Notes under the pieces: generated by a model | Told to the model about the DNA's origin: nothing | Database searches by the model: none | The model's input: the letters and a program-made list of their open reading frames with translations, nothing else | From: a virus | Length of the DNA stretch: 48,434 nucleotides | Reading direction: 5' to 3' (one strand) | IMG/VR virus record: IMGVR_UViG_3300023434_000001 | Coordinates: 1-48,434 of that record | Made by a program: the position numbers and the translations under genes | In this document: piece after piece, positions 1,977 to 48,434 of the stretch | Position numbering within the stretch: position 1 is the first letter of the stretch | How the letters are laid out: each line of letters opens with the position of its first letter

Positions 1977-2010
1977 CCGTATTCATTTTAACCATTTATT
2001 ATAAAAAATA

Positions 2011-2109: not shown

Positions 2110-2160
2110 CATTTCTTATATCTTCCCTTTTATTTTACTAAATTACAATAAATTTCCCAA

Positions 2161-2262
2161 TTAAAAACTATAAATTCCGTTTCTGAAATAATACACTACT
2201 AAGCCAATTGCAATTATAATTATTGCGGCTGCTATTATCCCTGTTATTTTATTTATTTTCAT
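2161..2262 (-). CDS. Single-span membrane peptide (33 aa)
   Basis: A 33-codon ORF with ATG at 2262 and TAA at 2161. After a KINK head comes an uninterrupted hydrophobic span of about 18 residues (ITGIIAAAIIIIAIGLVV), then a short tail. It lies in the lysis part of the late operon and is a plausible second holin or antiholin. The clean membrane-helix design argues for a real gene despite its length. Confidence 0.5.
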   Translation of the reverse strand: MKINKITGIIAAAIIIIAIGLVVYYFRNGIYSF

Positions 2263-2272
2263 ATCTCAGATT

Positions 2273-3355: not shown

Positions 3356-6300
3356 TTATTGAACTTTTGCGTAGTCTGGTGAAGGGTTAAATTCTAATTC
3401 TGTTGTACTTAATGCAAACCCTATTTTCCGTTGGAAATCATCAGTTGTTGTTGGCGAATCTTTTAGTATTGCCCCTGCTGTTGTGCTTACAAAGTAAGGT
3501 GATCCGGCTGTTAGTCCTGTTGTTGTATAAATCCCTTGTTTTAGAAATAAGCCCGCAGCATCAGCACTTATTGTTGCTAAAGCTATTAATAATACTCCAT
3601 CCGTAGTAGCAGCCGCATCAGCATCAGTTTTCCAGTACTTACCATCAGATTTTAAATAAACTAAGTTTCCGGCAACTAATGATTCCCCAGCGGTTGCAGT
3701 TTCTACTATTTTTATATCTTCTTCAAAATATGCATCACCAGCGACTTCTAATGTATGAGTTGGTACGTTTGTAGTTGCTCCATCATCTCCAATTCTCATT
3801 TGCCCTTGTGAAACTCTCCATCCTCCATAAGTTGTTGATGCTTCTATTGTTCGTAACATAGCTCCACCAGTAGTATCTTTTAATTCAGTATAATGAGTAC
3901 CATGAATTGTTAAAGATGACATTCTTATACCATCAGTCCAGCCATACGCATACATACCAGTAGGGGACAATGACATCATTTCAGTTTCAGCACCTCCTGA
4001 AGATGACATTTGATTAAATGTAAGCAGAGTTGCATTATGCTCAATATTCCAATAATTACCGGGAGATGATCCTGTTCCTGTTATTTCAATTTTATTTCCA
4101 TTAATAATTTTCTGAAGTGCATCCCACGTTGTTACTCCGGCTACCGTATTAGTAGTTGATTTATCAAAAGCATTGGTTACCTGTGCTGCTGTATAATCTC
4201 CTATTGTAGCCACTACTGCACCTGCTCTTGTAAATACTGAGGTCACATCGCCAGTCGCTAAGTCTGCAATAGACTGCGCTGTTACTGTTTTGATATTGTC
4301 CGAATCTGTAATATCCTGAATTATAACTTTATCACCAGTCGCAACGGTAACCCCTGTTATTGTTGCCCCATCTAAAGCAGCAACAACATTAGTTTCATTT
4401 GCGGTTAATTTATCACTATTAGCTTCTAATGCAGTAATTTGTGCGGCTGTTGCAAGTCCCGGTTGTGCATTAGTAGCTTTTTGACCATTAACGTAATCTA
4501 TGCTAATATTTCCAGTTGTTGCATTAAAATCATTGGCTGTAAAGCTTGCAACTCCCTGAGTTGAACCATCAGCAACCGCATCTGTGATTGCATGGGTATG
4601 ACTTGTAGTTGTTACCGCATTTGTACTTGTTCCGGTAGTTGTCGAAGGTGTTCCCATCGTAACGCTTCCAGTACCTGTAATGGTTGTGAAATCTAGTCCA
4701 TTTCCGGCTGCTACGCTGGTAACACCGTCTATTGGAGCATCAATCCAATTCGTACCATTACCAACTGCAAGTGATGATAGTATTTGCCCAGCCGTTCCAC
4801 TATCTCCACTTATATCTTTTAAGTCGGCTTCAAATTGAGCATTTTTATTAAAGGCGACTAAACTTTGACCGATTGTAATATAATCTTCCAAACCACCAGT
4901 CCCAGTACTTATGGTATTACCTTGTAGTTTAGAAAATCCATCTTTTACATAGTTTCCAAAGGTCAAAACACCAGCCCCTCCATAAAGCAAAGCTTCATTT
5001 TGAATAAGAATATCAGTTGCATTATCTCCAAACCTTCCATAATCACCTATTATAGCACCTGTGGTTTCAAGTGATCCTGTAATATCTAATTTTGTTCCAC
5101 TCCATGTAAAATTAGCATCACCTTCAAGTGTGCCGTCACCTGTCCATACTCCAACTTGATTGTCTACTGGTGTTCCTACTTTTGTAACGTCACCACCACC
5201 AGCAGGAGTTGAATAAGCCCCATTTGCATTTAAGAATTTAGTTGTAGTTCCGTCGCCCTTTGGTGCAAATCCATGTTTAGCTGAAGAAACATTTCCAGTT
5301 GTAATATCAGTAAATGTAATTGTGGCATCGCTTATTGTTTGGTCACCTGGATAAGTAACTTTATCATTATTAGTTTCTATATTGCCAACTAAAGCCGCTG
5401 TCATATAACCTGTTTGTGCGTTCGTTGCCGCCCTGTTACTGATTTCCTGAGTAGAGATACTCATTCCCCCTGTTGTTGCAGATGCGTTTAAAGTTACTGC
5501 TGTACTGTTGTCTGTTCCGGCTTGGTCAACATCTAAAGTGCTTCTCGCATTTATTGCAGCAACATCATCTATTAATGAAGCTCCAAATGTACTTATCGTT
5601 GTGCTTGCTGGCAAAACTAAAGTTTTAATATCGGCATCTACCTCTGAATCCATTAATGCCCCTGCTGCTGTTACGTTTGTAACATCTGCTGTTAATTTTG
5701 TAGTATTTACTACAACTTCATCAAACTTAGCTTTCGTTAATAGACCAGCCCTTGACGTACTTGCAGCAACTAATGTCGCATTTGTTCCATCTGAAGAATC
5801 AACATCTACTGTGGTTGTAGTTGCTGTTCCTTCTGATAAATTAGTTGAAACGTTTGTTGCTTTCGCATTATTTGCTGTATGTTGATCAAATATAGTTTTT
5901 GTCATTATGCCAGCGTCAGATGTGGTTGCACTACCTATTGTGGCATTTGTACCCGTACTTGAATTAATTGCAACAGCATTTGTTCCAGTAGATAGTGATA
6001 AATCTGTTCCTGTAATATCAGAAGTCATTGCAAATGTTCCAGTTTTTGCGGGAATTGTATTCGTGTAAGATGTTGCAGAAGTATTAGCAACAGAAATAGT
6101 ATTAACCCCCGTAGAAGTTCCCTTCATTGCTAATTTATCCTTATCGAAAGTCTTTAACCCAGTTACAGATTGTACAGAAGATAAAACCATGTCCCCAACA
6201 CCACCAGTTGCCCAGCTTAATTTCCTTGCTCCATCAGTAGTCATAACCTGATTAACTGTTCCGTCAGTGTTCGGCAGTTCATATACCGCGCTTTCTGATA

Positions 6301-8398: not shown

Positions 8399-9570
8399 TA
8401 TGTCGTTGTTGTTACGGTGTCAAAATTAACTATTATATTCATTTTCGCCCCTGCTCCTGCAACGGAAAAATATAGGGTTGACGCATTATCAGGATCTTTC
8501 AAGTAATGTCGTGGAATTATTTTCCATTTAGTGACGTAAGTAACCTTGCTTATGCTGCCCTGAACGGCATCAATTATATCTGTTCCGGCTATGGTAGTTC
8601 CAAGGGTCACCACTGCGATTGCTGCTGCGCTGGTTGAATCATGTTTAATCCATACAGAGTGCAACATATATCCTTCAGGATTTTCAACCTCCCACCCTGC
8701 GCTTGTTACTTCATCATTTCTTTTTGTTACTATCATGTTTTCCGGTGTTACTGATCCATCAGATCCAAGATCATCACTGTTTAATCCAACAGCATAAGTC
8801 TCAGTCATGTCAATAGACATTTTCATCAAAGTATTACCGTCAATTGGTTCTGGATCACCAATTTCAGGAACATTATATTGAATTTCATTTATTGTAAAGA
8901 AGTCTAATATAGAAGCGGCAATTATCTTTTCGCATAAATACCACGGTATATTTCCGGTCAGGAATATTTGACCTCTATATAACTTCGATGCAATGTTTGT
9001 TTTTGTATCAACATCTTCCAGTATGTCTACGCTACCATCAGGCTTATAAACGTCTCTGCTTTCCACATAGAAAAACATTTTGTCTAAAACAGTCCAATCG
9101 ATATATTGACCATCAGTAGATACATTAAAATCAAAATTAGTGTATTGAATTAACTTAATATCGCCATTTTCAATGTCTTCAGAAATATCAGATACACAAA
9201 TAGGCTCGCTCGTCAATGTATCAGAGCCTACTTGCTCTAATGTAAATGACACTATTTTATCATGATAATCTGCGGACATTTCAACCTCAAAATTCCAATA
9301 ATAACGAATATCAGAAGTCCCTCTGGTGGCAGCAAGTGTCCCGTTTATTGATTCCTTTTCGTAAGCAATAAATGTTTTGAGAATTGGCACTGTTGCAGAA
9401 TCACTTTCAAACTGAAGATAAATAGTATTGCTATTATTATACTTCTGCCAATATTTACCAACAGTTAGTCCGCCCTCTTTTTTATCGTTATAAAGACGAT
9501 TTGATCTGTTTGGATAGTTACCCGACAAATCCCAAAACGTAACGCTATTTAATACTGAACTAGCTAACAT
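8398..9570 (-). CDS. Tail-tip or baseplate-type structural protein (390 aa)
   Basis: A 390-aa beta-rich protein without enzyme motifs, between the 746-aa tail protein and the fibre, overlapping both by a few bases. The composition (many D, T, S, Y, V) and the position fit a tail-tip protein linking the distal tail to the fibre. Segment 100-130 and the C-terminal 80 residues look like separate beta domains. The exact role is inferred from gene order. Confidence 0.6.
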   Translation of the reverse strand: MLASSVLNSVTFWDLSGNYPNRSNRLYNDKKEGGLTVGKYWQKYNNSNTIYLQFESDSATVPILKTFIAYEKESINGTLAATRGTSDIRYYWNFEVEMSADYHDKIVSFTLEQVGSDTLTSEPICVSDISEDIENGDIKLIQYTNFDFNVSTDGQYIDWTVLDKMFFYVESRDVYKPDGSVDILEDVDTKTNIASKLYRGQIFLTGNIPWYLCEKIIAASILDFFTINEIQYNVPEIGDPEPIDGNTLMKMSIDMTETYAVGLNSDDLGSDGSVTPENMIVTKRNDEVTSAGWEVENPEGYMLHSVWIKHDSTSAAAIAVVTLGTTIAGTDIIDAVQGSISKVTYVTKWKIIPRHYLKDPDNASTLYFSVAGAGAKMNIIVNFDTVTTTT

Positions 9571-39490: not shown

Positions 39491-39562
39491 AAGGGAATAG
39501 CTTTAGGTGAAGTCACGTCAGTCATTGTTGTATGGCGAAGCGAACCGTTTAAAATTAAACTA

Positions 39563-39823
39563 ATGATAGATGATTTTGATTTAGAAAAAGAAGAGCGTAA
39601 ATTTAGCGCAAAGATGCTAAAAGGCACGAAAGTAGCCCGTGCAAACAACATGAACCTAACTAAGTTTAAAACAGAGATAGAAAAAGGGCTTTTAACAACA
39701 AACGATGAAGACCAATGGACTTTTGATTATCAAAGCTTCCTTGGTGCAATATCAAACGGTATTTATGAAAGCCCGACCGAATGGGCAGAAGAATACTTTA
39801 ACGGGCGGTGGTCATTAGTTTAA
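39563..39823 (+). CDS. Cassette 1 protein (86 aa), unknown
   Basis: First cassette gene (cassette opens at 39528, TTGTAT...). An 86-aa acidic protein starting MIDDFDLEKEERKF and ending EEYFNGRWSLV, with W and Y at the C-terminus. Possibly a small interaction domain. The preceding leader has no Shine-Dalgarno. No family recognised. Confidence 0.6.
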   Translation: MIDDFDLEKEERKFSAKMLKGTKVARANNMNLTKFKTEIEKGLLTTNDEDQWTFDYQSFLGAISNGIYESPTEWAEEYFNGRWSLV

Positions 39824-39834
39824 TTTTTAATGGC

Positions 39835-39929
39835 ATACAACGGTTTGTGTAAGATTATGTAGCACAACCACAAATGATGATTAAAAGTACAAAGGCTGTA
39901 TGTGCTATTAATTTTACACTTTGTTATAG
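39835..39929 (+). repeat. attC1 (95 bp)
   Basis: R'' ATACAAC (39835-39841), L'' GGTTTGTGTAAGATT, L' AATTTTACACTTT, R' GTTATAG (39923-39929). The inner arms GTAGCACAACC and GGCTGTATGTGCT also pair. R'' pairs with the opening TTGTAT of cassette 1. Confidence 0.75.
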
Positions 39930-39948
39930 CCAGTTATTATTACGTACA

Positions 39949-40179
39949 ATGAAAATTGAAATGCAGAAAAGAAAGGCGGGAATATATGCCCAATGGTTTA
40001 GTATAGACGGATTGAGCGGTGGAAAAAGAACTACCTACTTAATATATGCGAACCAAGCCAAGACCTACGCACAAGCTGTTAGATTTTGGAATAAAACGTG
40101 GGGTGGACGTAATGGGAACAAAGCCTTTGTATTGAGAAATGCCGAGCCGTATAACCCTAGTTCATATTTAGCCTGTTAA
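39949..40179 (+). CDS. Cassette 2 protein (76 aa), unknown
   Basis: Start at 39949 is chosen because the longer frame would begin inside attC1. Sequence begins MKIEMQKRKAGIYAQWFSID, a compact alpha/beta protein ending YNPSSYLAC. No family. Cassette opens TTATAGCC at 39924 and closes with GGCTATAC(C). Confidence 0.55.
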   Translation: MKIEMQKRKAGIYAQWFSIDGLSGGKRTTYLIYANQAKTYAQAVRFWNKTWGGRNGNKAFVLRNAEPYNPSSYLAC

Positions 40180-40183
40180 TTGG

Positions 40184-40225
40184 CTATACCGGACGGGTGT
40201 ATGTTTAGTTTTTTAACGGATAAAT
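40184..40225 (+). repeat. attC2 remnant
   Basis: CTATACCGGACGGGTGTATG: R''-like box with C in place of A (CTATACC, 40184-40190; expected CTATAAC from the cassette's start). No clear R' follows, so the site looks truncated and the next cassette's opening bases are missing too. Confidence 0.45.
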
Positions 40226-40233
40226 AAAAAGAT

Positions 40234-40476
40234 ATGATTAAAGAAGATGAATTAAGAGCTGAAATAACAAAGCTATTGGATGCTCACAATAGTAACGAGA
40301 TAGACAGCAGAGATGAATGGTATAGGGAAATGGTATATTTTAGAGATGCAGTAGTTAAAAAATTAAATATACACATTGTTAGCAATTCTGTTAAATGCGG
40401 CAATTGTGATGTAGAAATAAAACAAGGAGAAGTTTCTTATTGTGAAGAATGTTATGAAAGAGCGGTAAAATGGTAG
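40234..40476 (+). CDS. Cassette 3 zinc-ribbon protein (80 aa)
   Basis: Helical N-terminus (MIKEDELRAEITKLLDAHN) then a zinc ribbon: CGNC (about 57-60) and CEEC (about 72-75). Probably a small nucleic-acid or protein binding factor. Its cassette lacks the normal start box because attC2 is degraded. Confidence 0.55.
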   Translation: MIKEDELRAEITKLLDAHNSNEIDSRDEWYREMVYFRDAVVKKLNIHIVSNSVKCGNCDVEIKQGEVSYCEECYERAVKW

Positions 40477-40487
40477 CATTTAATTGT

Positions 40488-40546
40488 TGCTAACTGAAAG
40501 TATAAGATACGTTGCTTTTCGCAATGGATTTTATACGGTGTTACCT
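40488..40546 (+). repeat. attC3 (59 bp)
   Basis: R'' TGCTAAC (40488-40494), L'' GTATAAGATACG, terminal hairpin TTGC-TTTTC-GCAA, L' GGATTTTATACG, R' GTTACCT (40540-40546). Compact and well paired. Confidence 0.7.
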
Positions 40547-40590
40547 GAGCGAAGCGGACTGTTAAATTAAAATTTTAAAGCGTAGGAAAT

Positions 40591-40947
40591 ATGAATTATT
40601 ATAGAGTTTACACAGCCATAAAAGATGGTGAAAAAGTACCAAGGAAAGCAAAGAAAGTGATATTAGGTAAGCTAATGAATAAGGCAAAATTAAAAAAACT
40701 GCTTGATAGTGTGATAATAGGAGAGCAGGCACATACGATGTATGAGACCGCAGACATTAAGCCTTATTTATTTTGCCCACATTGCGGATGCCAACAAACA
40801 AGAAGTAGTGGTAATCTAACTGCACACCCTGAGCATTGGGAATATGAATACTGCTTGAGATGCAATAAGGTTGTTGGTTACATTGATAACAGCCCATATA
40901 CACATGCTTTAGAATGCAAGGACAATGATTATGACCCTGTTTTTTAG
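40591..40947 (+). CDS. Cassette 4 zinc-ribbon protein (118 aa)
   Basis: A basic N-terminal half (KDGEKVPRKAKKVILGKLMN) precedes CPHC (about 62-65) and CLRC (about 90-93), a zinc ribbon like those in restriction alleviation (Lar-type) or DNA-binding proteins. Cassette opens TTACCTG (40541) and closes with CAGGTAA. Confidence 0.55.
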   Translation: MNYYRVYTAIKDGEKVPRKAKKVILGKLMNKAKLKKLLDSVIIGEQAHTMYETADIKPYLFCPHCGCQQTRSSGNLTAHPEHWEYEYCLRCNKVVGYIDNSPYTHALECKDNDYDPVF

Positions 40948-40972
40948 TGTGGTGGCATTTTAATTTAATTGC

Positions 40973-41115
40973 AGGTAATGTTCGACTGCTAAGTTTCGTT
41001 TTGCCCGCCTTTCAAGGAAAGGATTGAGGGTAAAATGAAATTTAACACTGGTTAAGGATTGTTGGGTTTCGCTTACCCACTGCACTTTTAAGTAATAGGC
41101 AGTCGAACATTAAGG
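40973..41115 (+). repeat. attC4, long branched variant with A|TT core (143 bp)
   Basis: R'' AGGTAAT and R' ATTAAGG replace the usual AAC/GTT. P1 is TAATGTTCGACTGC (40976-40989) / GCAGTCGAACATTA (41099-41112), 14 bp. Inside: hairpin TTTCGTTTTGCCC / GGGTAAAATGAAA with CCTTTC/GAAAGG tip, a conserved AATTTAAC, then GGGTTTCGCTTACCC. It shares this plan with attC14. The sequence up to 41000 also forms the window's last 22 bases. Confidence 0.7.
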
Positions 41116-41156
41116 CTAATAGTTGGATTGGGAATTATTAATTTAAACTTACATAT

Positions 41157-41408
41157 ATGTCTAAGAATAGTAAAGAAAACTACAAAGTACACGCCCATTT
41201 TCATGGCGAAGTAACACCTGAATTTGCAGAGGTGTTTAATAAAATGGTTGTAGCTGGTGCAAAATTTGCAGATAGCGGAATTAATAATGGAGATACAAAA
41301 AAGAGAACGAGTAAACCATTTTGCAACTTTACTGTAAAAAATTCTCACTTTTGCCGTCGATGTCATAGGTGCGATATGTGCGACCAACAACCAAAAAATG
41401 GTTTGTGA
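41157..41408 (+). CDS. Cassette 5 protein with Cys cluster (83 aa)
   Basis: Starts MSKNSKENYKVHAHFHGEV. The C-terminus has HFCRRCHRCDMCDQQ, a likely metal site of four cysteines. The cassette is the clearest of all: opening TTAAGGCTAATAG (41110) and closing CTATTAGCCTTAAC (41417-41430), 13 complementary bases. Function unknown. Confidence 0.55.
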   Translation: MSKNSKENYKVHAHFHGEVTPEFAEVFNKMVVAGAKFADSGINNGDTKKRTSKPFCNFTVKNSHFCRRCHRCDMCDQQPKNGL

Positions 41409-41423
41409 AGCGAACGCTATTAG

Positions 41424-41487
41424 CCTTAACGGTACTCAGCTATGAAGCGGCTGAGGAACGAAGCTGATTTATGAGCTGATGTTATAG
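41424..41487 (+). repeat. attC5 (64 bp)
   Basis: R'' CCTTAAC (41424-41430), GGTACTCAGCTATG ... GGCTGAG, AAGCTGATTTATGAGCTGAT, R' GTTATAG (41481-41487). Arms pair as CTCAGC/GCTGAG with further AGCT repeats. Confidence 0.7.
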
Positions 41488-41524
41488 TGAGTTTTTTGAG
41501 TGGAAATGATTTAATAATTTATAT

Positions 41525-42025
41525 ATGAGAAAAGGAATAGGATCCCATCAATCCGCAAATATGAAAAAAGATGAATGGCTTACGCCTCCCGAAATTATTA
41601 AAGCATTGGGGGAATTTACCCTTGATCCTTGCGCCCCAGTGGTGCGCCCGTGGGAAATGGCAAATAAGCATTTAACCACAGAAGATGATGGACTGAAACA
41701 GCCGTGGGAGGGCAGGGTATGGTGTAACCCACCCTACGGACTTGAAGCAGCGAAATGGCTTGACAAGTTGAGCGAACACGGCAACGGAATAGCTTTAATA
41801 TTTGCCAGAACCGAAACCAGGATGTTTTTCGAATATGTGTGGAAACGTGCAACTGCCGTGTTGTTTATTGAGGGCAGGCTTTACTTCCACCATGTTGACG
41901 GATCCAAAGCCCGAGCGAATGCAGGCGCACCTTCGGTATTAATAGCTTATGGTAACAATAACGCAGAAACCTTGAAGAATTGTACAATCAAGGGTAAATT
42001 TTTGGCGTTGGGAAATTCACTATAA
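41525..42025 (+). CDS. Cassette 6: phage Dam-type DNA N6-adenine methyltransferase (166 aa)
   Basis: Matches the short phage Dam family (PF05869 type): WLTPPEIIKALGEFTLDPCA (18-37) contains the AdoMet-binding DPCA, and CNPPYG (67-72) is the catalytic NPPY. It would methylate adenine, protecting phage DNA or marking it. The gene is visibly richer in G and C than its neighbours, a sign of transfer. The cassette opens TTATAGTGA and closes TCACTATAAC, nine complementary bases. Confidence 0.85.
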   Translation: MRKGIGSHQSANMKKDEWLTPPEIIKALGEFTLDPCAPVVRPWEMANKHLTTEDDGLKQPWEGRVWCNPPYGLEAAKWLDKLSEHGNGIALIFARTETRMFFEYVWKRATAVLFIEGRLYFHHVDGSKARANAGAPSVLIAYGNNNAETLKNCTIKGKFLALGNSL

Positions 42026-42050
42026 CGGTAAGTTGTATGCTTTGTTGGCG
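42020..42050 (+). repeat. attC6 (31 bp, minimal)
   Basis: R'' CTATAAC (42020-42026), AAG, loop TTGTATG, CTT, R' GTTGGCG (42044-42050). AAC-GGT-AAG pairs with CTT-T-GTT. Much shorter than the rest; perhaps deleted in its stem. R'' overlaps the stop codon of the methyltransferase. Confidence 0.6.
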
Positions 42051-42080
42051 TACCAAATATTAATAAATAAAATTTAAAAA

Positions 42081-42431
42081 ATGAAAGATTCAAATTTACA
42101 CCCACTTTTCAATGAAATACTTAATAGCCAATTAAGTATACAAAATGTTACCAACTTTCAATTTACGGATGAAATGCAATGGCTAAGTAACCTTTTGCCA
42201 AAACGTTACAACTGTGAATTAAGAAAAAAAGGCGTGCATTGCTACGATACTACTGGCGAAGGTATCAGTGATGACCACATGACGCACGATAAATACAACC
42301 CTGAAACAGACAACCAATGGATGCTAATAACGAAAGCCATTAAACAGAAGTTTGGCAAAAGGTTGATGGAAATATATAGCCAAGAGACACAATACAACTC
42401 TAAGTTTACCGTATACCTACGACCTGAGTAA
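42081..42431 (+). CDS. Cassette 7 protein (116 aa), unknown
   Basis: A mixed alpha/beta soluble protein starting MKDSNLHPLFNEILNSQ. It contains RYNCELRKKGVHCYD and ends SKFTVYLRPE. Family unknown. Its cassette opens TTGGCG but closes TGGTAAT, which do not match, so this cassette may be recombinant. Confidence 0.55.
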   Translation: MKDSNLHPLFNEILNSQLSIQNVTNFQFTDEMQWLSNLLPKRYNCELRKKGVHCYDTTGEGISDDHMTHDKYNPETDNQWMLITKAIKQKFGKRLMEIYSQETQYNSKFTVYLRPE

Positions 42432-42440
42432 ATTTATTGT

Positions 42441-42509
42441 TGGTAATGACTAGTGTATGTTGTCGGAATTTGTTTTTCACAAATTATGCACTATGACACG
42501 TTGTTACCT
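42441..42509 (+). repeat. attC7 (69 bp)
   Basis: R'' TGGTAAT (42441-42447), loop hairpin AATTTGT-TTTTC-ACAAATT, R' GTTACCT (42503-42509). The only site where a T in R'' faces a G in R' (a G.T pair), breaking the covariation rule. Confidence 0.6.
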
Positions 42510-42571
42510 GTCTTTGTTTTATTTTTTTTTAGGGAGGGTTTAATTTTCTTTAAAAATAAATAGCAATACAC

Positions 42572-42602
42572 TTGCATATGTAATACAATTGCTATATATT
42601 CG
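42572..42602 (+). promoter_or_regulatory. Promoter inside cassette 8
   Basis: -33 TTG (42572-42574), a 20-nt spacer, -7 TATATTCG (42595-42602; one base from consensus). Shows that this cassette carries its own promoter, as toxin-antitoxin cassettes usually do. Confidence 0.55.
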
Positions 42603-42634
42603 CAGTATTAAATTATTAATTAAAAATTATTCAA

Positions 42635-42814
42635 ATGAAAACATTTAAAACAAAAGGATTGCCTTATTATGTAAAAGGATGTAATAATGTATTTAATGCA
42701 GCAACAACACTTATCGAAAATAAGATAGGGGTAACAGAAAATGACTTAGAAGAAGTGACTACTGATTTAATACCTATTGGAGCAACTATATTCTGTTACA
42801 CTAAAAAACTATAA
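42635..42814 (+). CDS. Cassette 8 first protein (59 aa), TA-like partner
   Basis: ATG at 42635, TAA at 42812-42814, one base before the next ATG. Starts MKTFKTKGLPYYVKGCNNVF. A small basic/hydrophobic protein preceding a ribbon-helix-helix protein. It could be the partner (toxin or target) in a toxin-antitoxin pair. No toxin family recognised. Confidence 0.5.
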   Translation: MKTFKTKGLPYYVKGCNNVFNAATTLIENKIGVTENDLEEVTTDLIPIGATIFCYTKKL

Positions 42815-42815
42815 A

Positions 42816-42974
42816 ATGAGTAAAGTACAACTACCAGTAAGGATTGAGCAAGATGATTTAAACACCTTAAAGGAACTTGCGGAACAAGACAATAGACCAC
42901 TAAGCAATTATGTTGATACTGTGCTTAAAAACCATATTGCTTTGAAAAAGCAAAAGAGCGTTGGCAAAAAATAA
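42816..42974 (+). CDS. Cassette 8 ribbon-helix-helix protein (52 aa)
   Basis: ATG at 42816; a longer frame from 42777 would overlap the upstream gene. LPVRIEQDDLNTLKELAEQ then RPLSNYVDTVLKNHI is the RHH fold (strand, helix A, helix B) typical of antitoxin DNA-binding domains. Probably represses its own promoter at 42572-42602. Confidence 0.65.
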   Translation: MSKVQLPVRIEQDDLNTLKELAEQDNRPLSNYVDTVLKNHIALKKQKSVGKK

Positions 42975-42982
42975 AATATTGC

Positions 42983-43050
42983 AGGTAACGGTTTGGCTAT
43001 GAAGCGGATTTTGTTTTTCACAAAATATGATTTATGAGCCGTTGTTATAC
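42983..43050 (+). repeat. attC8 (68 bp)
   Basis: R'' AGGTAAC (42983-42989), L'' GGTTTGGCTATGAAGCGG, hairpin ATTTTGT-TTTTC-ACAAAAT, then ATTTATGAGCCGTT and R' GTTATAC (43044-43050). Cassette opens TTACCTG and closes CAGGTAA. Confidence 0.75.
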
Positions 43051-43101
43051 ACTGGCACTTTACCCACAGAAATTAAATACGAACTAAAAGAAAAAATAGA
43101 G

Positions 43102-43392
43102 ATGGCAACTTACGAATTACCAGACACAGTAAAAGAACTATTTGAACAAGGAGAAAACCAGTACAGAATAATTGACTATGCGCCAGAGATGGAAATGGAT
43201 AATAACCAAAGTATGGAATGCTTCCTTGACCATATTGGAGCAACTGGAGACAATATTAAGTGCCACGATGGTACACAGGTTACATTAATACATCCAGATT
43301 ATGGAATGATGTACGTAGTTGACGCAGGAGGGTTGGGGGATTTTTTCTCTCACGGATTTGAGGTAAGTTTACACGAGAGCGATAATGATTAG
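43102..43392 (+). CDS. Cassette 9 acidic protein (96 aa)
   Basis: The ATG at 43102 is preferred over one at 43027, which lies inside attC8. The acidic protein starts MATYELPDTVKELFEQGENQ and ends HESDND. It contains DYGMMYVVDAGGLGDFF. Family unknown; possibly an anti-defence or regulatory acidic protein. Opens TTATACAC, closes GTGTATAAC. Confidence 0.55.
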   Translation: MATYELPDTVKELFEQGENQYRIIDYAPEMEMDNNQSMECFLDHIGATGDNIKCHDGTQVTLIHPDYGMMYVVDAGGLGDFFSHGFEVSLHESDND

Positions 43393-43399
43393 TGCTTGT

Positions 43400-43460
43400 G
43401 TATAACGAATGGTTGTATGTGGCGTGGCTTTTCGCCATGACACATGACAACGTGTTAGGT
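43400..43460 (+). repeat. attC9 (61 bp)
   Basis: R'' GTATAAC (43400-43406), GTTGTATGTGGCGTGGC, loop TTTTC, GCCATGACACATGACAAC, R' GTTAGGT (43454-43460). Long, well-paired arms (GTTGTATGTG/CACATGACAAC). Confidence 0.75.
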
Positions 43461-43511
43461 GCTTTTAAATAAAAAAATAGGGAAGGAATTTTTAATTTAA
43501 AATATAAAACA

Positions 43512-44117
43512 ATGAGAACTAATTTAGAGAAATGGAATTATTACTTATCAATTGTTAAAAAGCGTGAAGAAGAGTATATTAAGAATAATGTGGATAAAAT
43601 GCCAGAATACGTTTATTTTATTTATCCTACAGGTAAGATTAGAAAGTTGCAGATAACATATATAAGTTATAGTAACCGATTGTATTTTTATGGCAAAAAA
43701 CCAACAAGGGACGATGTTAAGAAAATAAACGACTATGTAATTGATAACAGCCCAATGACCTTAGATAATGTTCATGTAGGATGGAAAAGTATTGGTGAAA
43801 AATACAATAGCAGTAGTGCTTTTAAATATACCGAAAGAGACCAATATTTAAGCAAACAGGAGGTTGAAATAAAGAGCAAGGAAGCGACTAAGAAAAAGGA
43901 AGATGAAGAAATATTATTAAACAATGGACACATAAGATGTGTATACTGCAATAAGGTTGTTCCAGAAAAAGATTCAATTAGCCATACTATTATATTTCAA
44001 AATAGCAGACAAGACCCATACAGTAGAACTGGGTGGAAAAAGTTTGTTGATAGAAAGACAAATAAATACTGTTCTGGCAAATGTGGAGGTAATGACCAAA
44101 TGGCACACGAAGGTTAA
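43512..44117 (+). CDS. Cassette 10 protein with C-terminal zinc motif (201 aa)
   Basis: The largest cassette protein of unknown type. Starts MRTNLEKWNYYLSIVKKREE; a beta-rich segment YFIYPTGKIRKLQITYI; a charged helix around 110-130; then CVYCNK (about 142-147) and a C-terminal YCSGKCGG, probably a zinc site of two knuckles. Opens TTAGGTGC, closes GCACCTAAC. Confidence 0.6.
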   Translation: MRTNLEKWNYYLSIVKKREEEYIKNNVDKMPEYVYFIYPTGKIRKLQITYISYSNRLYFYGKKPTRDDVKKINDYVIDNSPMTLDNVHVGWKSIGEKYNSSSAFKYTERDQYLSKQEVEIKSKEATKKKEDEEILLNNGHIRCVYCNKVVPEKDSISHTIIFQNSRQDPYSRTGWKKFVDRKTNKYCSGKCGGNDQMAHEG

Positions 44118-44169
44118 TCTAATGGTTTTGCAAAAACCAAAGTGCGGTGGGATTATTTTATTTTATTGC

Positions 44170-44263
44170 ACCTAACGGTCTATGTAAGATTTGAAGCGTA
44201 ACCAGTACCGATGATTAATTGCGTAAACGCCATATACGCTTTTAATTTTACATTTTGTTATGG
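44170..44263 (+). repeat. attC10 (94 bp)
   Basis: R'' ACCTAAC (44170-44176), L'' GGTCTATGTAAGAT, inner GAAGCGTAACC...GCGTAAACGCC, L' AATTTTACATTTT, R' GTTATGG (44257-44263). Same architecture as attC1. Confidence 0.75.
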
Positions 44264-44279
44264 CGAGTTAATTAGATAG

Positions 44280-44528
44280 ATGAAAAAAATTGAATTTGAA
44301 ACTTACCGGGATTTAACAAGTGGCTACAATATTGCAGGTATGAAATCAGAGAATCCGAGTGCTATAAATTTTTTGAGCTACAAGAAATATAAGGTTACAA
44401 TTGAAGAGATAGAAGAACCTAAAGCCGTTTTGATTAAAAGATTACGAGAGCTATTGAAAAAAACTACTGGATTCAACCAAGCAAGTAGCATTAAAGATGA
44501 AATTAAACGGCTTGAACTACTACCCTAA
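44280..44528 (+). CDS. Cassette 11 protein (82 aa), unknown
   Basis: ATG at 44280, only 22 bases after the cassette start. A basic protein starting MKKIEFETYRDLTSGYNIAG; C-terminal amphipathic helix (AVLIKRLRELLKKTTGF). Opens TTATGGCG and closes CGCCATAAC, eight complementary bases. Family unknown. Confidence 0.55.
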   Translation: MKKIEFETYRDLTSGYNIAGMKSENPSAINFLSYKKYKVTIEEIEEPKAVLIKRLRELLKKTTGFNQASSIKDEIKRLELLP

Positions 44529-44532
44529 TTCG

Positions 44533-44597
44533 CCATAACGGTTCGTGTAAGTTGCGTTGAACACAGACGTTGATTAGTTGAACTGACTTAGTTTTAG
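44533..44597 (+). repeat. attC11 (65 bp)
   Basis: R'' CCATAAC (44533-44539), GGTTCGTGTAAGT ... ACTTA, R' GTTTTAG (44591-44597). Divergent R' box but it pairs with the closing box of the next cassette (AAAACTTTTAAAAC). Confidence 0.6.
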
Positions 44598-44641
44598 AAG
44601 TTTTTGGGAGGGATTTTTTTTTAATTTTTAAATATATAATT

Positions 44642-45067
44642 ATGAATATACCACAATTTAGAGTTTGGGACAAAAGTAAATATAGAATGATTCAGGGCGA
44701 TTTACTTAATATTTCTTTTGGAGGGAATAATTTTGGAGTATATTATCTTGAAGAAAGCGAATTATGTTTAGGCAATGAAGAAGATTTTATATTAATGATG
44801 TGGACTGGATTAACCGACCAAAACAATACCAGAATATATGATGGGGATATTATTGAATTTATTGAGTTTAATTTTGAACATGGAATGGAGGTTGAATACG
44901 AAAGAAAAGGAGTGGTTAGTGTTGATTTTGGATGTGACGGAGTTTGTACATCTTTTACTATATTGGGAGAAAAAATGGAAATTCCATTAACTTTTATCAC
45001 GGAGATTGCGAGTGATACTATCCTTGTAATTGGAAATACAATGAAGGAGAAACCATTGAATGTGTAA
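44642..45067 (+). CDS. Cassette 12 YopX-family protein (141 aa)
   Basis: YopX (PF09643) small phage/plasmid protein of unknown role. Signatures: FRVWDKSKYRM at the N-terminus (6-16), MMWTGLTDQNNTRIYDGDII (about 52-71), and the C-terminal VIGNTMKEKPLN. Length matches the family. Found in a cassette coupled with the next gene. Confidence 0.8.
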   Translation: MNIPQFRVWDKSKYRMIQGDLLNISFGGNNFGVYYLEESELCLGNEEDFILMMWTGLTDQNNTRIYDGDIIEFIEFNFEHGMEVEYERKGVVSVDFGCDGVCTSFTILGEKMEIPLTFITEIASDTILVIGNTMKEKPLNV

Positions 45068-45401
45068 CTGCAAAAACATAATACCACAAAGCAAAGAATG
45101 TTATTCTAATATGATTACGGTAGAAATACCTGAACACATGAAAGAATATAGAGACAATCGAGTAAATGCTGGACTAAGCAGTAAAATTTCAATTGACCCA
45201 TGTATTTATAATGAAATATGCGAATTGTGGAAACTTGAAATTATAACTTATGGTTCTTGTTGTGGACACAATAAACGGGAATCATTTGTTAATGTTGCCG
45301 ATGAAAATATTTCCCAAATGTTAGAAATGGGATATATTCAGAATCACCATGACAAAAATCGTAAGGATACGTTTCGTCTTAAAAGTTTTGAAAAAACTTA
45401 G
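45060..45401 (+). CDS. Cassette 12 second protein (113 aa)
   Basis: ATG at 45060 overlaps the YopX stop by 8 bases; an alternative start is 45111 (MITVEIPEHMKEYRDNR). The core, VEIPEHMKEYRDNRVNAG and TYGSCCGHNKRE, resembles small phage proteins often encoded near YopX genes. The short Cys-rich N-terminus (MCNCKN) is optional. Unknown function. Confidence 0.6.
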   Translation: MCNCKNIIPQSKECYSNMITVEIPEHMKEYRDNRVNAGLSSKISIDPCIYNEICELWKLEIITYGSCCGHNKRESFVNVADENISQMLEMGYIQNHHDKNRKDTFRLKSFEKT

Positions 45402-45417
45402 TGCGGTTGGAAAACTT

Positions 45418-45486
45418 TTAAAACGGTCAAACTTATGCAAACTTTGATTAAACGCTTGACACAATGCAATTTACACTTTGTTATAA
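45418..45486 (+). repeat. attC12 (69 bp)
   Basis: R'' TTAAAAC (45418-45424), GGTCAAACTTATGC, inner GATTAAACGCTTGACACAATGC, L' AATTTACACTTT, R' GTTATAA (45480-45486). Cassette start TTTTAGAAGTTTT pairs with AAAACTTTTAAAA (12 of 13). Confidence 0.65.
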
Positions 45487-45577
45487 GCCGTTGTTTGTCT
45501 AAAAGTTCGTCTAAAGTTTAACTAATTAGACGTTGCTTAGACATTTTTAGCTGAACTTTAGACAATGGCTTTATAAC
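45481..45577 (+). other. Cassette 13, ORF-less structured cassette (~97 bp plus attC)
   Basis: Opens TTATAAGCC and closes GGCTTTATAAC with no ORF between. Instead it holds nested inverted repeats: TTGTCTAAAAGTTC (45495-45508) / GAACTTTAGACAA (45553-45565) and CGTCTAA (45508-45514) / TTAGACG (45526-45532). A small RNA, a regulatory element or a decayed cassette are the options. Confidence 0.6.
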
Positions 45578-45630
45578 GTTTGGGTAAGTTTAGTGCGCCA
45601 ATTACGCAGAATTTTGATAAAAGAGATAAA
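45571..45630 (+). repeat. attC13 remnant
   Basis: R'' TTATAAC (45571-45577) and L'' GTTTGGGTAAGTTT are present, followed by GCGCCAATTACGC. No R' partner is found before the next gene, so the site appears truncated. The start box of cassette 14 is missing as well. Confidence 0.45.
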
Positions 45631-45658
45631 GTAATAATAACCTAATTAGTGAACGGAT

Positions 45659-45982
45659 ATGAAAAAAGCAGATGCAAAATACATACTTGAAGCAATAGAG
45701 TGGATGAATAAAAATACAACTGTTGCAAGTGTAGATATGGAAACATACGGCAATTTATTTATGAATAGCCAAAATTTATTAATGGATGAAGTGAACGATG
45801 CCGAAAAAAGCGATGAACCAGCATTAAATTTACCCGTTGTTAACGGCTGTGCTTTGTTAAATGAAGTACTAGACCACCAGCAGGAGGTAATAAGCAGCCC
45901 TATTCGCTTCAATGGAGTACATATAGATACAATTAAGCAACTATTTGGCAAGTACGGAATAATGTACAAGGATATGTTTTAG
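45659..45982 (+). CDS. Cassette 14 protein (107 aa), unknown
   Basis: An acidic helical protein starting MKKADAKYILEAIEWMNKN; segments NLPVVNGCALLNEVLDHQ and GVHIDTIKQLFGKYGIMYKD. No family recognised. Its 5' box is lost but it ends with the long attC14. Confidence 0.55.
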   Translation: MKKADAKYILEAIEWMNKNTTVASVDMETYGNLFMNSQNLLMDEVNDAEKSDEPALNLPVVNGCALLNEVLDHQQEVISSPIRFNGVHIDTIKQLFGKYGIMYKDMF

Positions 45983-45988
45983 CATTGC

Positions 45989-46130
45989 CGTTAATGTCTC
46001 TGAGCTAAATACTGTTAACCCCGCATTTGGGACAAATGAGATAGGGGTTAATGGAATTTAACTCCTTGTTAGGATTACGTTCGATTGCGAACAGGAAAGG
46101 CTACTAGATCACGGCTCAGAGACATTAGGA
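45989..46130 (+). repeat. attC14, long branched variant with A|TT core (142 bp)
   Basis: R'' CGTTAAT and R' ATTAGGA. P1 TAATGTCTCTGAGC (45992-46005) / GCTCAGAGACATTA (46114-46127), 14 bp. Inner P2 TTAACCCC/GGGGTTAA capped by CATTTGGGACAAATG, conserved GAATTTAAC and TTGTTAGGATT, and TTCGATTGCGAA. It aligns with attC4 end to end, differing by compensatory changes in each stem. Confidence 0.7.
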
Positions 46131-46165
46131 GTTATTCTAAATACTGAAAATTAAAAATTATTGAT

Positions 46166-46300
46166 ATGTCGAAGAAATTAACAAAAGATGAAGCCGCAAA
46201 AAAGCGAGACTTTCACAGAAAAAGAGCTAAATATTACGATAAGAAATACATTGAATGCAAAGCCAAAGAGAAGCGCATAGGCTTCAAGTGGTATGATTAA
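46166..46300 (+). CDS. Cassette 15 small basic protein (44 aa)
   Basis: ATG at 46166, TAA at 46298-46300. MSKKLTKDEAAKKRDFHRKR; lysine- and arginine-rich, helical, ending RIGFKWYD. Cassette opens TTAGGAGTTA and closes TAACTCCTAA (10 complementary bases). Probably nucleic-acid binding. Confidence 0.55.
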   Translation: MSKKLTKDEAAKKRDFHRKRAKYYDKKYIECKAKEKRIGFKWYD

Positions 46301-46350
46301 TTTTTGATGAAAGGATTTATAGATTGAGAGGCACGAGCAATCGTATTAAC

Positions 46351-46445
46351 TCCTAACGGTTTGGCTATGTTTAGTTGCCGAACGATAAACTTCAAAAACT
46401 AAGCACAAATTTTCAGCGGCAATTAAATATGAGCCGTTGTTATAA
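46351..46445 (+). repeat. attC15 (95 bp)
   Basis: R'' TCCTAAC (46351-46357), L'' GGTTTGGCTATGTTTAGTTGCCG, L' CGGCAATTAAATATGAGCC, R' GTTATAA (46439-46445). Arms GGTTTGGCT/GAGCC and TTGCCG/CGGCAA pair. Confidence 0.75.
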
Positions 46446-46459
46446 AACGTTTTTTAGCG

Positions 46460-46726
46460 ATGGGAAAATATACAGGAATTACAGGAAAGTTAAGTATTGG
46501 CGATGTTATCCATGTAGGTAATCCAATACGAAAAGAAGAATATTGCTACTACGGAGTAACCGACATTGACGGCAATAAAGCCAAGACTGGATTTAGAACA
46601 TTTAATGCTAATATTTATCACGATAAGTTTATTTATGAGTACGGAAAGAAAGATTCGCAATATGATAATTGCTATACAGTAAGTAGTTTGGAAGCCGCAA
46701 AAGAAGCGGGGGCAAATGTTTTATAA
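46460..46726 (+). CDS. Cassette 16 protein (88 aa), unknown
   Basis: A beta-rich protein starting MGKYTGITGKLSIGDVIHVG; segment EEYCYYGVTDIDGNKAKTG; C-terminal helix SSLEAAKEAGANVL. SH3-like barrel is possible. The stop lies within R'' of attC16. Opens TTATAAAAC, closes GTTTTATAA. Confidence 0.55.
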   Translation: MGKYTGITGKLSIGDVIHVGNPIRKEEYCYYGVTDIDGNKAKTGFRTFNANIYHDKFIYEYGKKDSQYDNCYTVSSLEAAKEAGANVL

Positions 46727-47052
46727 TGGCCTTGCTAAACGTAGTTTCTGGGTATGTAAGAATTTAAAATTGAAATGATGGAAGAAACACAAAAGATTCT
46801 AAAAAAACTTGCTGCTGCTGGACTATTTCATCCAGATGGATTTAACGAACAAATACAAGATGATTTTCTAGAGGACTTAAAACCCTTTAGCTCTGTAACT
46901 GAAAATGATATTTCAATTTTAGAGGCTGAGAATACCAAGGAAACTCAAAAAGACCAGAAGTAGCTATGCTCCAATTACGTTTAGCTATTGTTAGAAAATC
47001 GGTAATCCCGTTTACCCGGGAAAACTTTTTGAGGTTAGCAAGGCCATTAGAA
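46721..47052 (+). repeat. attC16, A|TT variant split by a gene (332 bp)
   Basis: Outer arms TAATGGCCTTGCTAA (46724-46738) and TTAGCAAGGCCATTA (47035-47049) are exact complements, 15 bp. R'' is TTATAAT and R' is ATTAGAA. Between them sits a 62-aa ORF, and then a 3' half (TTTAGCTATTGTTAG...GTTTACCCGGGAAAAC) that aligns with attC4 and attC14. The gene thus lies where the first internal stem-loop of the long attC would be. Confidence 0.6.
46775..46963 (+). CDS. ORF nested within attC16 (62 aa)
   Basis: ATG at 46775 (or 46778). Acidic helical protein starting MMEETQKILKKLAAAGLFHP, ending ENTKETQKDQK. Preceded by an AT-rich leader like other cassette genes. It lies inside the palindrome of attC16; secondary insertion of a cassette, or a gene carried in an attC loop, would explain it. 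Function unknown. Confidence 0.5.
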   Translation: MMEETQKILKKLAAAGLFHPDGFNEQIQDDFLEDLKPFSSVTENDISILEAENTKETQKDQK

Positions 47053-47105
47053 AACAGACAGCCTGAGAATTGAGGCACGAAATGAAGGGATTTCTGTTTT
47101 CTAAC
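47047..47105 (+). other. Cassette 18, ~59-bp ORF-less mini-cassette
   Basis: Opens TTAGAAAACAG (47047) and closes CTGTTTTCTAAC (47094-47105), 11 complementary bases. There is no room for a gene. It contains ATTGAGGCACGA, nearly the same as ATTGAGAGGCACGA (46324-46337) at the tail of cassette 15, so it may be a deleted relative of that cassette. Confidence 0.6.
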
Positions 47106-47145
47106 GGACAGCGGTATGTTGCGTTTTTTATTTACGGATTAAAAA
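47099..47145 (+). repeat. attC18 remnant
   Basis: R'' TTCTAAC (47099-47105) and GGACAGCGGTATGTTGCG, then AT-rich DNA without an R' box. Looks truncated, and the next cassette lacks the opening box expected from its closing TGCTAAC. Confidence 0.45.
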
Positions 47146-47160
47146 CTAAAAATTAATTAT

Positions 47161-47421
47161 ATGACACGAGATGAAATAGTAGATTTCTTAGAATGGGCAA
47201 AGGAAGAAGGACAATTGCAGTTCCCAGAAAGCAAAAAAGTAGATATGGCAGAAATGTACATAAAAGAGCATGATGTAGTAAATAAAACATGCAATATACC
47301 GTATGTTAGCAATAACGAAGTGGCGGTTTGCCCTAAATGCAAAGGTGCTTCAAATAGCTACATACATGGATTTCGGACATACTGTGATAGATGTGGAGGA
47401 ACTGGGCAAACTGATTGCTAA
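47161..47421 (+). CDS. Cassette 19 zinc-ribbon protein (86 aa)
   Basis: Helical N-terminus (MTRDEIVDFLEWAKEEGQLQ) and a C-terminal zinc ribbon with CPKCKG (about 57-62) and CDRCGG (about 75-80), the CxxCxG pattern of DnaJ-like zinc domains. Likely a small protein-binding or nucleic-acid-binding factor. The TAA stop is part of the R'' box. Confidence 0.6.
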   Translation: MTRDEIVDFLEWAKEEGQLQFPESKKVDMAEMYIKEHDVVNKTCNIPYVSNNEVAVCPKCKGASNSYIHGFRTYCDRCGGTGQTDC

Positions 47422-47476
47422 CGGTTCGGCTGTATGTGGCGCGGTTTTTCACCGTGACATATAAAGCTTGTTACCT
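47416..47476 (+). repeat. attC19 (61 bp)
   Basis: R'' TGCTAAC (47416-47422), GGTTCGGCTGTATGTGGCGCGG, loop TTTTTC, CACCGTGACATATAAAGC, R' GTTACCT (47470-47476). Shares its design with attC9. Confidence 0.7.
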
Positions 47477-47542
47477 GCTTTTTGTTTTTAATATTTTTAG
47501 GGATGGCAAACTAATTTTGAAAAAATTAATCTTTTCTTGGAT

Positions 47543-47588
47543 TATATTTGTATATACAAAATAAAGAACTATATTTGTGTATACAAAA
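47543..47588 (+). promoter_or_regulatory. Promoter overlapped by two operator-like palindromes
   Basis: Promoter -33 TTTG (47547-47550), 19-nt spacer, -7 TATATTTG (47570-47577). A 19-bp motif TATATTTGTnTATACAAAA occurs twice (47543-47561, 47570-47588; one difference). Each copy contains the palindrome TTTGTATATACAAA (first copy perfect), 27 bp apart. One covers the -33 box, the other covers the -7 and start site. Ideal operators for the RHH repressor at the end of this cassette. Confidence 0.65.
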
Positions 47589-47599
47589 ACGATAAAGAC

Positions 47600-47788
47600 A
47601 TGAAAAACGAAACAAGATTTAACGAAATAAGCAGCAAACTAAACGAAATGTTTAAAGGTAAAAGTGAAACTAAAAAAGATGAATTAGTAAAAGGTTTAAA
47701 AAACTGGTGTAAGATAAACGCAAACTCAGCAGACAAAGCCAAATTAGAGGCTATTAAAAGCTTTTTGGCTGACAATAATATTTTTTAA
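47600..47788 (+). CDS. Cassette 20 first protein (62 aa), small helical
   Basis: ATG at 47600 just after the operators; a longer frame from 47537 would overlap the promoter. Starts MKNETRFNEISSKLNEMFKG, helical and lysine-rich, ending SFLADNNIF. First gene of a three-gene operon in the last cassette. Function unknown; possibly an antitoxin or a small structural partner. Confidence 0.5.
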   Translation: MKNETRFNEISSKLNEMFKGKSETKKDELVKGLKNWCKINANSADKAKLEAIKSFLADNNIF

Positions 47789-47790
47789 TT

Positions 47791-48237
47791 ATGAAAATAC
47801 CTGAAATAAAAGGAAAGAATATACTTATAATCGGATGCCCTGCTAGTGGCAAAACATTTATGAGTGCATTGTTTAATTCTAATGATCATGAAATATTTCA
47901 CACTGACGACTACATAAAGTTTGGCTACAAAGAAAGCATGTATCAGTGTTTGAGTGATGTTATAAAATGCAAAAAGAATACAATTACTGAAGGTGTACAA
48001 GGATATAGAATGCTTAGAAAAGGAGTAGAATTAAATAACTATTACCCAGATATGATTATTGAGTTAAAAATAACTGAGCAGCTAATGTTCTCTACTTACA
48101 AGAAAGAGAGAAGCGCAAAAAAAATTAAGTACTTGGCAGGATTTAATAAGATGCACGATAAAATATTGACTGACTACAAAAATATGGCAAACAACAAAAA
48201 GCCTGAATGGATAATAATAAATAACGATTATGACTAA
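47791..48237 (+). CDS. Cassette 20 P-loop kinase-like protein, toxin candidate (148 aa)
   Basis: Walker A GCPASGKT at residues 15-22, followed by HTDDY (37-41), like the acidic pair after the P-loop in zeta-toxin and nucleotide kinases. TITEGVQGYRML is the next conserved-looking segment. It could phosphorylate a nucleotide, nucleic acid end or cell wall precursor. The companion RHH gene overlaps its end by 8 bases, which makes a toxin-antitoxin pairing likely but unproven. Confidence 0.6.
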   Translation: MKIPEIKGKNILIIGCPASGKTFMSALFNSNDHEIFHTDDYIKFGYKESMYQCLSDVIKCKKNTITEGVQGYRMLRKGVELNNYYPDMIIELKITEQLMFSTYKKERSAKKIKYLAGFNKMHDKILTDYKNMANNKKPEWIIINNDYD

Positions 48238-48412
48238 AGAAAACCTAAAGCCCAAAATGACACGAATGACTGACACGATGAAATCGGACATTCAAAAAAG
48301 CGCAGATAAAAATAACGAAGGTGTATTCGACAGAGAATTACGAGACTTAATCCAAATCGGTTTGAAAAACCGAAAAGGGAAGGGGAAAATATTAAAAATT
48401 AATTGCAGGTAA
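48230..48412 (+). CDS. Cassette 20 ribbon-helix-helix (Arc-like) protein (60 aa)
   Basis: RMTDTMKSDIQKSADKNNEG then RELRDLIQIGLKNRKG follow the Arc/RHH pattern: a strand, helix A, helix B with basic tail. It would bind the tandem palindromes at 47543-47588 and repress the operon. The gene continues across the contig ends (same as 1-126). The stop TAA is inside the AGGTAA box that closes the cassette. Confidence 0.65.
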   Translation: MTKENLKPKMTRMTDTMKSDIQKSADKNNEGVFDRELRDLIQIGLKNRKGKGKILKINCR

Positions 48413-48434
48413 TGTTCGACTGCTAAGTTTCGTT
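48287..48434. repeat. Right terminal repeat plus 22-base alternative junction
   Basis: 48287-48412 equals 1-126. At 48413 the two copies part: the left copy goes on with CTAGGGG, the right copy with TGTTCGACTGCTAAG. Bases 48399-48434 match 40965-41000 exactly (36 bases), i.e. the end of cassette 4 and the first arm of attC4. So the cassette 20 end has been joined to a long attC of the attC4 type in some molecules. Confidence 0.8.

Follow-up and report, generated by a model that had tools for sequence, protein, structure and literature searches.

Whole genes are the units that integrons are known to shuffle. Among the described systems, the closest to the locus presented here are the attC (CALIN) arrays of phages, which likewise combine small genes with hairpin sites bearing R'' and R' boxes and are found without a phage integrase (PMC9892861); five of the six phage attCs tested in that work recombined with IntI1, the source being three phages with a Polaribacter phage among them, and a gene inside or across an attC is not reported in the part of that paper drawn on here. 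Published attC lengths lie between 57 and 142 nt (PMC2727003), whereas the sites discussed below measure 160-340 nt and hold coding DNA in their loops. An ORF inside an attC has a precedent, which as far as the cited part describes it is a short ORF for reinitiation within an attC of the usual kind, aiding translation of the next cassette (PMC8876359); here, in contrast, enlarged loops contain either entire ORFs (about 50-65 aa) or the leading half of the gene that follows. Coding regions joined over a former cassette boundary are also known from fused gene cassettes, but in the fusions described in the section used here the attC is lost and a single moving unit results (PMC4670013), whereas in our arrays the attC is retained within the gene. 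Synthetic attCs placed in coding sequences likewise lie within genes and leave the protein intact (Nivina et al., as summarised in part of PMC8618304), yet these are engineered, while the arrays treated here are natural ones of phages and bacteria. In a study on Vibrio superintegrons, gene-less cassettes were tested as promoters (PMC11014356), and an ORF-less cassette is found in our array as well. Within the open-licence literature, as far as the parts covered go, we found no natural attC with gene halves in a fixed codon phase. At least one survey left out attC-overlapping genes, according to its part cited here (PMC3607928), and because such sites in addition exceed 57-142 nt, standard annotation may miss them.

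The window analysed here, i.e. the whole stretch of 48,434 nt (IMG/VR record IMGVR_UViG_3300023434_000001), is a phage record with terminase and DnaB helicase genes, whose host probably belongs to the Bacteroidota. From about 39.5 kb, 3' of the helicase, a cassette array extends up to the contig end. Arrays were read with a parser scoring two pairings, that of the left with the right half of a site (A) and that of the start with the end of a cassette (B), and the window array gave two parsed chains of 16 nodes apiece. Over 297 loci, 101 chains reached a score of at least 18 and 59 a score of at least 25, compared with 10 and 2, respectively, in dinucleotide shuffles. Reversed sequences gave 30 chains against 79 real ones at a score of at least 14 in an earlier run; since reversal preserves inverted repeats, this control is harsher and less clean than dinucleotide shuffling. 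The parser yields false positives, and it also misses true features, such as the outer R' of L054 (minus) 6180 and ORF80 of the window, both of which were read by hand. No relatives of the array, of its sites E1 and E2 or of the attC at 46357 were found in the phages collection, an 18-mer of E1 is absent from the viral_contigs collection, and Rfam at gathering score returned only tRNA in the window. The start of a second copy of E1 lies at 48391-48434 (plus strand; 44 nt, 93%, matching 40957-41000); as the contig thus ends inside this copy, it is probable that the array goes on beyond it and that the record is cut at a repeat. It was further observed that the first cassette has a start (39545-39566) complementary to its end (39812-39833) over more than 20 nt, far past the usual R box, and that a gene for a Dam-type DNA methyltransferase (PF05869) resides inside the array at 41525-42025.

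Our main subject is the site E3 (46727-47046), which we read as one attC-type recombination site after the ORF88 cassette, carrying an entire small gene in its loop, and as a variant of a coding-loop design that other sites display with genes crossing the cut point; to this explanation as a whole we assign a probability of roughly two in three. The features are collected in Table 1, in which, as in the text, a slash within a motif or between two adjacent positions marks the cut point. Exact 15-bp complements 296 bases apart, with a 62-aa ORF between them, had been reported in the initial annotation and were found again: the 15-mer inverted repeat (46724-47049) is part of the arms TGTTTTATAATGGCCTTGCTAA and TTAGCAAGGCCATTAGAAAACA, which are 95% complementary over 22 nt, are separated by 296 nt and pair perfectly over 12 nt from the cut point. 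Among 300 dinucleotide shuffles of 39491-48434, a single one contained a perfect inverted repeat (15 nt or more, spanning up to 330 nt); two occur in the actual sequence, the E3 arms and a repeat at 39551-39827, the latter being the two ends of another cassette. Folded through the outer stem, the bottom strand of E3 reaches -41.4 kcal/mol as compared with -27.4 +/- 3.8 in shuffles (z -3.7).

Table 1. Features of E3, its neighbourhood and related genes (window coordinates unless a locus is named; A and B, pairing scores)
Feature	Position	Strand	Remarks
ORF80	40234-40476	+	spans R' 40378/40379, phase 1; read by hand, outside parser counts
E1, double-R' class	40979-41109	+	without ORF; fold z -4.0
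attC, 263 nt	45577-45839	+	first part of ORF107 in loop; A 12.4, B 9
ORF107	45659-45982	+	spans R' 45839/45840, phase 1
E2, double-R' class	45995-46124	+	without ORF; fold z -4.6
ORF88 (88 aa), gene of cassette A	46460-46726	+	TAA stop forms R'' end
E3, left outer arm	46717-46738	+	cassette A end, R'' (TAA/TG) and spacer; site starts at 46727
E3, inner (L-box-like) stem, left strand	46733-46744	+	GCTAAACGTAGT, A 11.7
ORF62 (62 aa), complete	46775-46963	+	in loop of inner stem
E3, inner right half	46973-46990	+	terminates at inner R' 46990/46991, G/TTAGAAAA
E3, X segment (56 nt)	46991-47046	+	next cassette's start copied, hairpin, outer right arm
E3, right outer arm	47035-47056	+	contains outer R' 47046/47047, A/TTAGAAAA
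ORF-less cassette (58 bp)	47047-47104	+	start and end pair over 12 nt
Next attC, 201 nt	47105-47305	+	first half of ORF86 in loop; A 19.6, B 8
ORF86	47161-47421	+	spans R' 47305/47306, codon phase 1
Array-adjacent tyrosine recombinase, L258	760-1893		candidate
Array-adjacent tyrosine recombinase, L218	136-1125		candidate
Array-adjacent tyrosine recombinase, L159	192-998		candidate
Array-adjacent tyrosine recombinase, L144 (record of L076)	1456-2268		candidate

Inside the arms, the initial annotation had noticed a second, partly complementary pair, CTAAACGTAG and ATTACGTTTAGC, taken there for the ends of a second cassette. The pair is present, but 11 of 200 shuffles match it, and alone it is weak; we read it as the inner stem of the same site rather than as cassette ends. 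To the right of this stem follows an inner R', whose start TTAGAAAA recurs at the outer R'. From R'' (46726/46727) to the outer R' (47046/47047), E3 measures about 320 nt and is thus outside the published range of 57-142 nt (PMC2727003, in the part cited). The 12 nt left of the cut pair perfectly with the left half, the 12 nt right of it with the end of the next cassette, and the site is situated between cassettes with complementary ends (B 10.5 before, B 12 after), cassette A starting with /TTATAAAACG at 46440 and pairing with its end GTTTTATAA (score 10.5). The halves of E3 pair and its bottom strand folds as expected of an attC, and its arms co-vary in the relative L124. In two other respects E3 differs from the usual attC. 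First, its cut base is A/TT and its R'' is TAAT, giving TAAT ... ATTA ends, instead of G/TT with TAAC and the R''/R' ends AAC ... GTT; GTT and AAC are both found in L124. Second, an unpaired central spacer with extra-helical bases is missing, as the outer arms pair perfectly through the spacer. Pairing of the spacer in a Vibrio attC lowered recombination 27-fold, according to the section cited here (PMC2727003), so that E3 is perhaps weak, slow, silent or dead.

Strong folding, which E1, E2 and E3 have in common, would also be expected of an RNA structure, for example an attenuator or terminator of the array transcript acting independently of recombination. Rfam, however, holds no family in the window besides tRNA, the stems stop exactly at the cassette boundaries, and the constant codon phase together with the recombinant halves of related sites (see below) require an exchange of DNA, which leaves this explanation with very little probability. 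The comparison with self-splicing introns, drawn in the initial annotation, was not borne out by a match to any curated intron RNA family in the window (Rfam, gathering score).

Whether the two arms belong to one site can be judged from relatives. In L124, part of a 45-kb viral contig, the attC upstream of E3, at window position 46357, is matched (97% over 97 nt), and the same cassette end GGCAAATGTTTTATAA is followed by a 324-nt site with a differing loop ORF of 54 aa (53 residues and the stop); its arms have letters other than those of E3 and are again complementary over 14 nt. The same cassette end is followed in L047 by a 50-nt attC without an ORF, and in L138 and L141 by a site with the beginning of an R'-crossing gene in its loop. 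This comparison indicates that the arms of E3 form one site with exchangeable loop content: the relatives do not show them as parts of different, separately acquired sites but the opposite, both arms differing jointly when L124 is set against the window. Sites that have or lack a loop ORF, which the initial annotation had proposed to look for, were found in L124 (another ORF) and in L047 (no ORF). The cassette-end pattern occurs in 15 stretches, of which L131, L133, L135, L136, L137, L139 and L142 do not resemble cassette arrays there and were excluded as relatives. As a separate observation, the genes closed by the end GGCAAATGTTTTATAA differ between the window, L124 and L047, and the cassette start /TTATAAAACG...GCGATGG precedes different genes in the window (46440-46727), L124 (minus; 8439-8861) and L078 (6238-6323).

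Two readings of the loop had been offered, either entry of a cassette into the loop of a pre-existing attC or a class of attC capable of holding an ORF in its loop. For a nested cassette speak the position of ORF62 between the arms, with a leader resembling that of other array genes, and the partly complementary sequences at its sides. Yet neither a G/TT start and AAC end pair nor a direct repeat is found around ORF62 (46740-46775 and 46963-46990), where by inspection there is no R' before the ORF, no R'' after it and no flanking direct repeat; a second copy of ORF62 was not found among the loci compared, and the site recurs with different ORFs. We thus consider the nested insertion very unlikely. 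The other reading, an attC class able to carry loop ORFs, is the one supported: after the same cassette end, the L124 site contains a different ORF, and complete inner-loop ORFs occur in L054 and L255. Searches of viral_contigs, phages and plasmids gave no relative of ORF62, which also lacks a Pfam match, so that its translation is putative; relatives of ORF88 were found neither in viral_contigs nor in phages, and none of ORF86 in viral_contigs.

The suggestion that the 3' part of the interior aligns with the long attC class was right as to design: E3 shares an outer stem, an inner stem, an inner R', a hairpin and an outer arm with E1 and E2, and the likeness is architectural. A search for this double-R' class gave 22 raw matches, of which 11 were kept, six being reverse-strand views of kept sites and five lying outside parsed arrays. 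Four of the accepted sites have a complete ORF in the inner loop (E3, L054 minus 6180 at 6180-6521, L124 minus 8861, and L255 4941 at 4941-5281), three an ORF crossing the outer R' and four no ORF; their sources are phage contigs together with two metagenome-assembled genomes (L208, Owenweeksia; L255, bacterium). The segment between inner and outer R' (X) measures 58, 56 and 56 nt in the three window sites, and in the class 56-82 nt in eight of the 11 sites and 175-180 nt in the other three. Its inner start agrees with the start of the next cassette in 6-11 of 12 letters, the inner point being partly chosen by that similarity; when it is placed by pairing alone, the values are 8, 8, 5, 11, 10, 3, 10, 7, 9, 6 and 6, and the point shifts in three sites. 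The X segment may represent an insertion with target duplication. A further explanation takes the sites for MITE-like mobile elements with terminal inverted repeats TG...CA, inserted into cassette ends, in keeping with the recurrence of E1 at the window end and with the TAA/TG starts and CA/TTA finishes of all three window sites. The arms, however, are wholly different from site to site, the flanks TTTTATAA and TTAGAAAA form no direct repeat and hence no target-site duplication, L124, L054, L076, L208 and L255 carry C...G instead of T...A, and the flanks follow the pairing rule of cassette starts and ends, so that this explanation is hardly probable at all. The E sites were rejected as TG...CA transposons because most sites in other records have C...G at those positions (L028 has T...A).

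The reading of E3 as a site with a gene in its loop draws on a larger group, in which a gene begins in the loop and crosses the cut point. Under a strict filter, which demanded an attC of 160-310 nt, an A of 11 or more and a B of 7 or more and entered junctions identical in the 60 nt around R' a single time, we obtained 37 distinct junctions with crossing genes in 25 loci, among them ORF107 and ORF86 of the window; L028 and L087 belong to a single contig. In 36 of the 37, with L077 as the exception, the cut falls in phase 1, i.e. the G of G/TT is the first codon base, whereas the other [GA]TT sites in those ORFs are spread over the phases as 176/169/137 (P about 4e-15, or 6e-10 when restricted to the two phases in which stops are not frequent). 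Lifting the strict filters gives 96 crossing ORFs, 84 of them in phase 1. ORF80, with site arms at 40197-40217 and 40354-40374, stands outside these counts. The N-parts of the crossing genes comprise 43-66 aa and the C-parts 28-55 aa (5th-95th percentile), and since an in-frame ATG within 40 nt past R' is present at just four of the 37 junctions, most crossing ORFs are not merely genes with a later start. Long sites (170 nt or longer, with A not below 11 and B not below 7) number 71: a phase-1 crossing gene is found in 37, and the remaining 34 include seven with a complete sense ORF of at least 40 aa, E3 being one of them, and two with an antisense ORF. In 27 of the 71 there is neither a sense ORF of at least 40 aa nor a phase-1 crossing gene, which speaks against the explanation preferred here.

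Given these crossing genes, ORF62 could alternatively be a decayed N-half, left in a former ordinary crossing-gene attC, to which the inner right half and the inner R' would have belonged, after a frameshift had closed the frame and the outer R' had become the cassette boundary. The phase-1 frame at the inner R' indeed reads EYQGNSKRPEVAMLQLRLAI/VRKS, overlapping the end of ORF62 in another frame, and similar endings are found in some N-halves, for instance TQQLRIGV/VVGS. The loop ORFs of L054 and L255, on the other hand, stop just before this frame opens and therefore look like complete genes, and with ORF62 an N-half of 72 aa would result, which is above most (95th percentile 65.8). We regard such a decay as unlikely and prefer a complete small gene in the loop.

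Several pairs of crossing genes appear to be recombinant at the cut point. The N-halves of L047 and L103 are 88% alike over 43 aa with unrelated C-halves; conversely, the C-halves are alike and the N-halves unrelated in L087 and L138 (75% of 32 aa) and in ORF107 of the window and the L124 gene (50% of 44 aa). At the DNA level, with 25 nt considered per side, identity changes across G/TT from 96% to 58% in L047 and L103 and from 58% to 88% in L087 and L138; it changes from 62% to 100% in L118 and L255, where the common stretch is just about 25 nt, while in the pair of window and L124 both sides have diverged and a sharp break at R' is absent. Differences in the common halves fall on the three codon positions as 3/2/9, 7/5/11 and 24/22/38, the third being most variable, as in translated DNA. 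It is therefore, in our judgement, quite probable that Bacteroidota phage and bacterial arrays naturally shuffle protein halves, with N-halves supplied by loops, C-halves by cassettes, a phase-fixed G/TT as the junction, by which any N-half could be joined in frame to any C-half, and, perhaps, Xer-type recombinases without the integron-specific insertion as the enzymes. Phase-fixed shuffling of halves would then parallel, in prokaryotes, the phase-matched shuffling of exons; if attCs can lie within genes in one constant codon phase, integron machinery also shuffles parts of proteins, and a natural case of what synthetic attCs have so far engineered would be at hand. The halves and junctions listed make this directly testable. 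A near-identical 25-nt cassette start, TTGTAGGGCGAAGCGAACAGTT (protein VVGxSEQ), was observed before different C-halves at L118:2717, L255:3704 and L054 (minus):4216.

As to the mechanism, the single bottom strand of E3 may fold in vivo into a long hairpin, whose outer stem would consist of R'' and spacer paired with the right arm. Sites would most likely be joined at R' by a tyrosine recombinase, as in integrons, and coding DNA of the loop would travel with the upstream cassette, ORF62 being part of the site of that cassette. Most often, and so in the crossing class, the coding DNA of a loop is the opening 43-66 codons of the gene that follows, which whichever cassette comes after would complete; the G/TT cut thus falls within this gene, behind the first codon base, and an exchange of the downstream cassette would replace the C-terminal half without loss of frame. 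The sequences themselves show the pairing of the arms, the way these change jointly in a relative, a codon phase that is almost constant, and recombinant halves; folding of the single strand in vivo, the recombinase, translation of ORF62 and activity of E3 in particular are presumed.

Regarding the enzyme, no integron integrase at the TIGR02249 cut-off was detected in 40 viral records, which are possibly fragments, or in 27 bacterial genomes, and the cut-off was not reached in any of the 14 control genomes either; an intI gene with the IntI-specific insertion is likewise absent from the record of the window. Tyrosine recombinases without the integron-specific stretch, however, adjoin four arrays (L076, L258, L218 and L159), originating from Sunxiuqinia, Aestuariivivens and Flavobacterium genomes and from one viral record. 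As candidates, these may be the enzyme of the system. For the three that were scanned, those of L076, L258 and L218, the best model is the XerA-type NF040815, and the L076 recombinase matched the solved XerC-like structure 4a8e ahead of IntI4 (2a3v).
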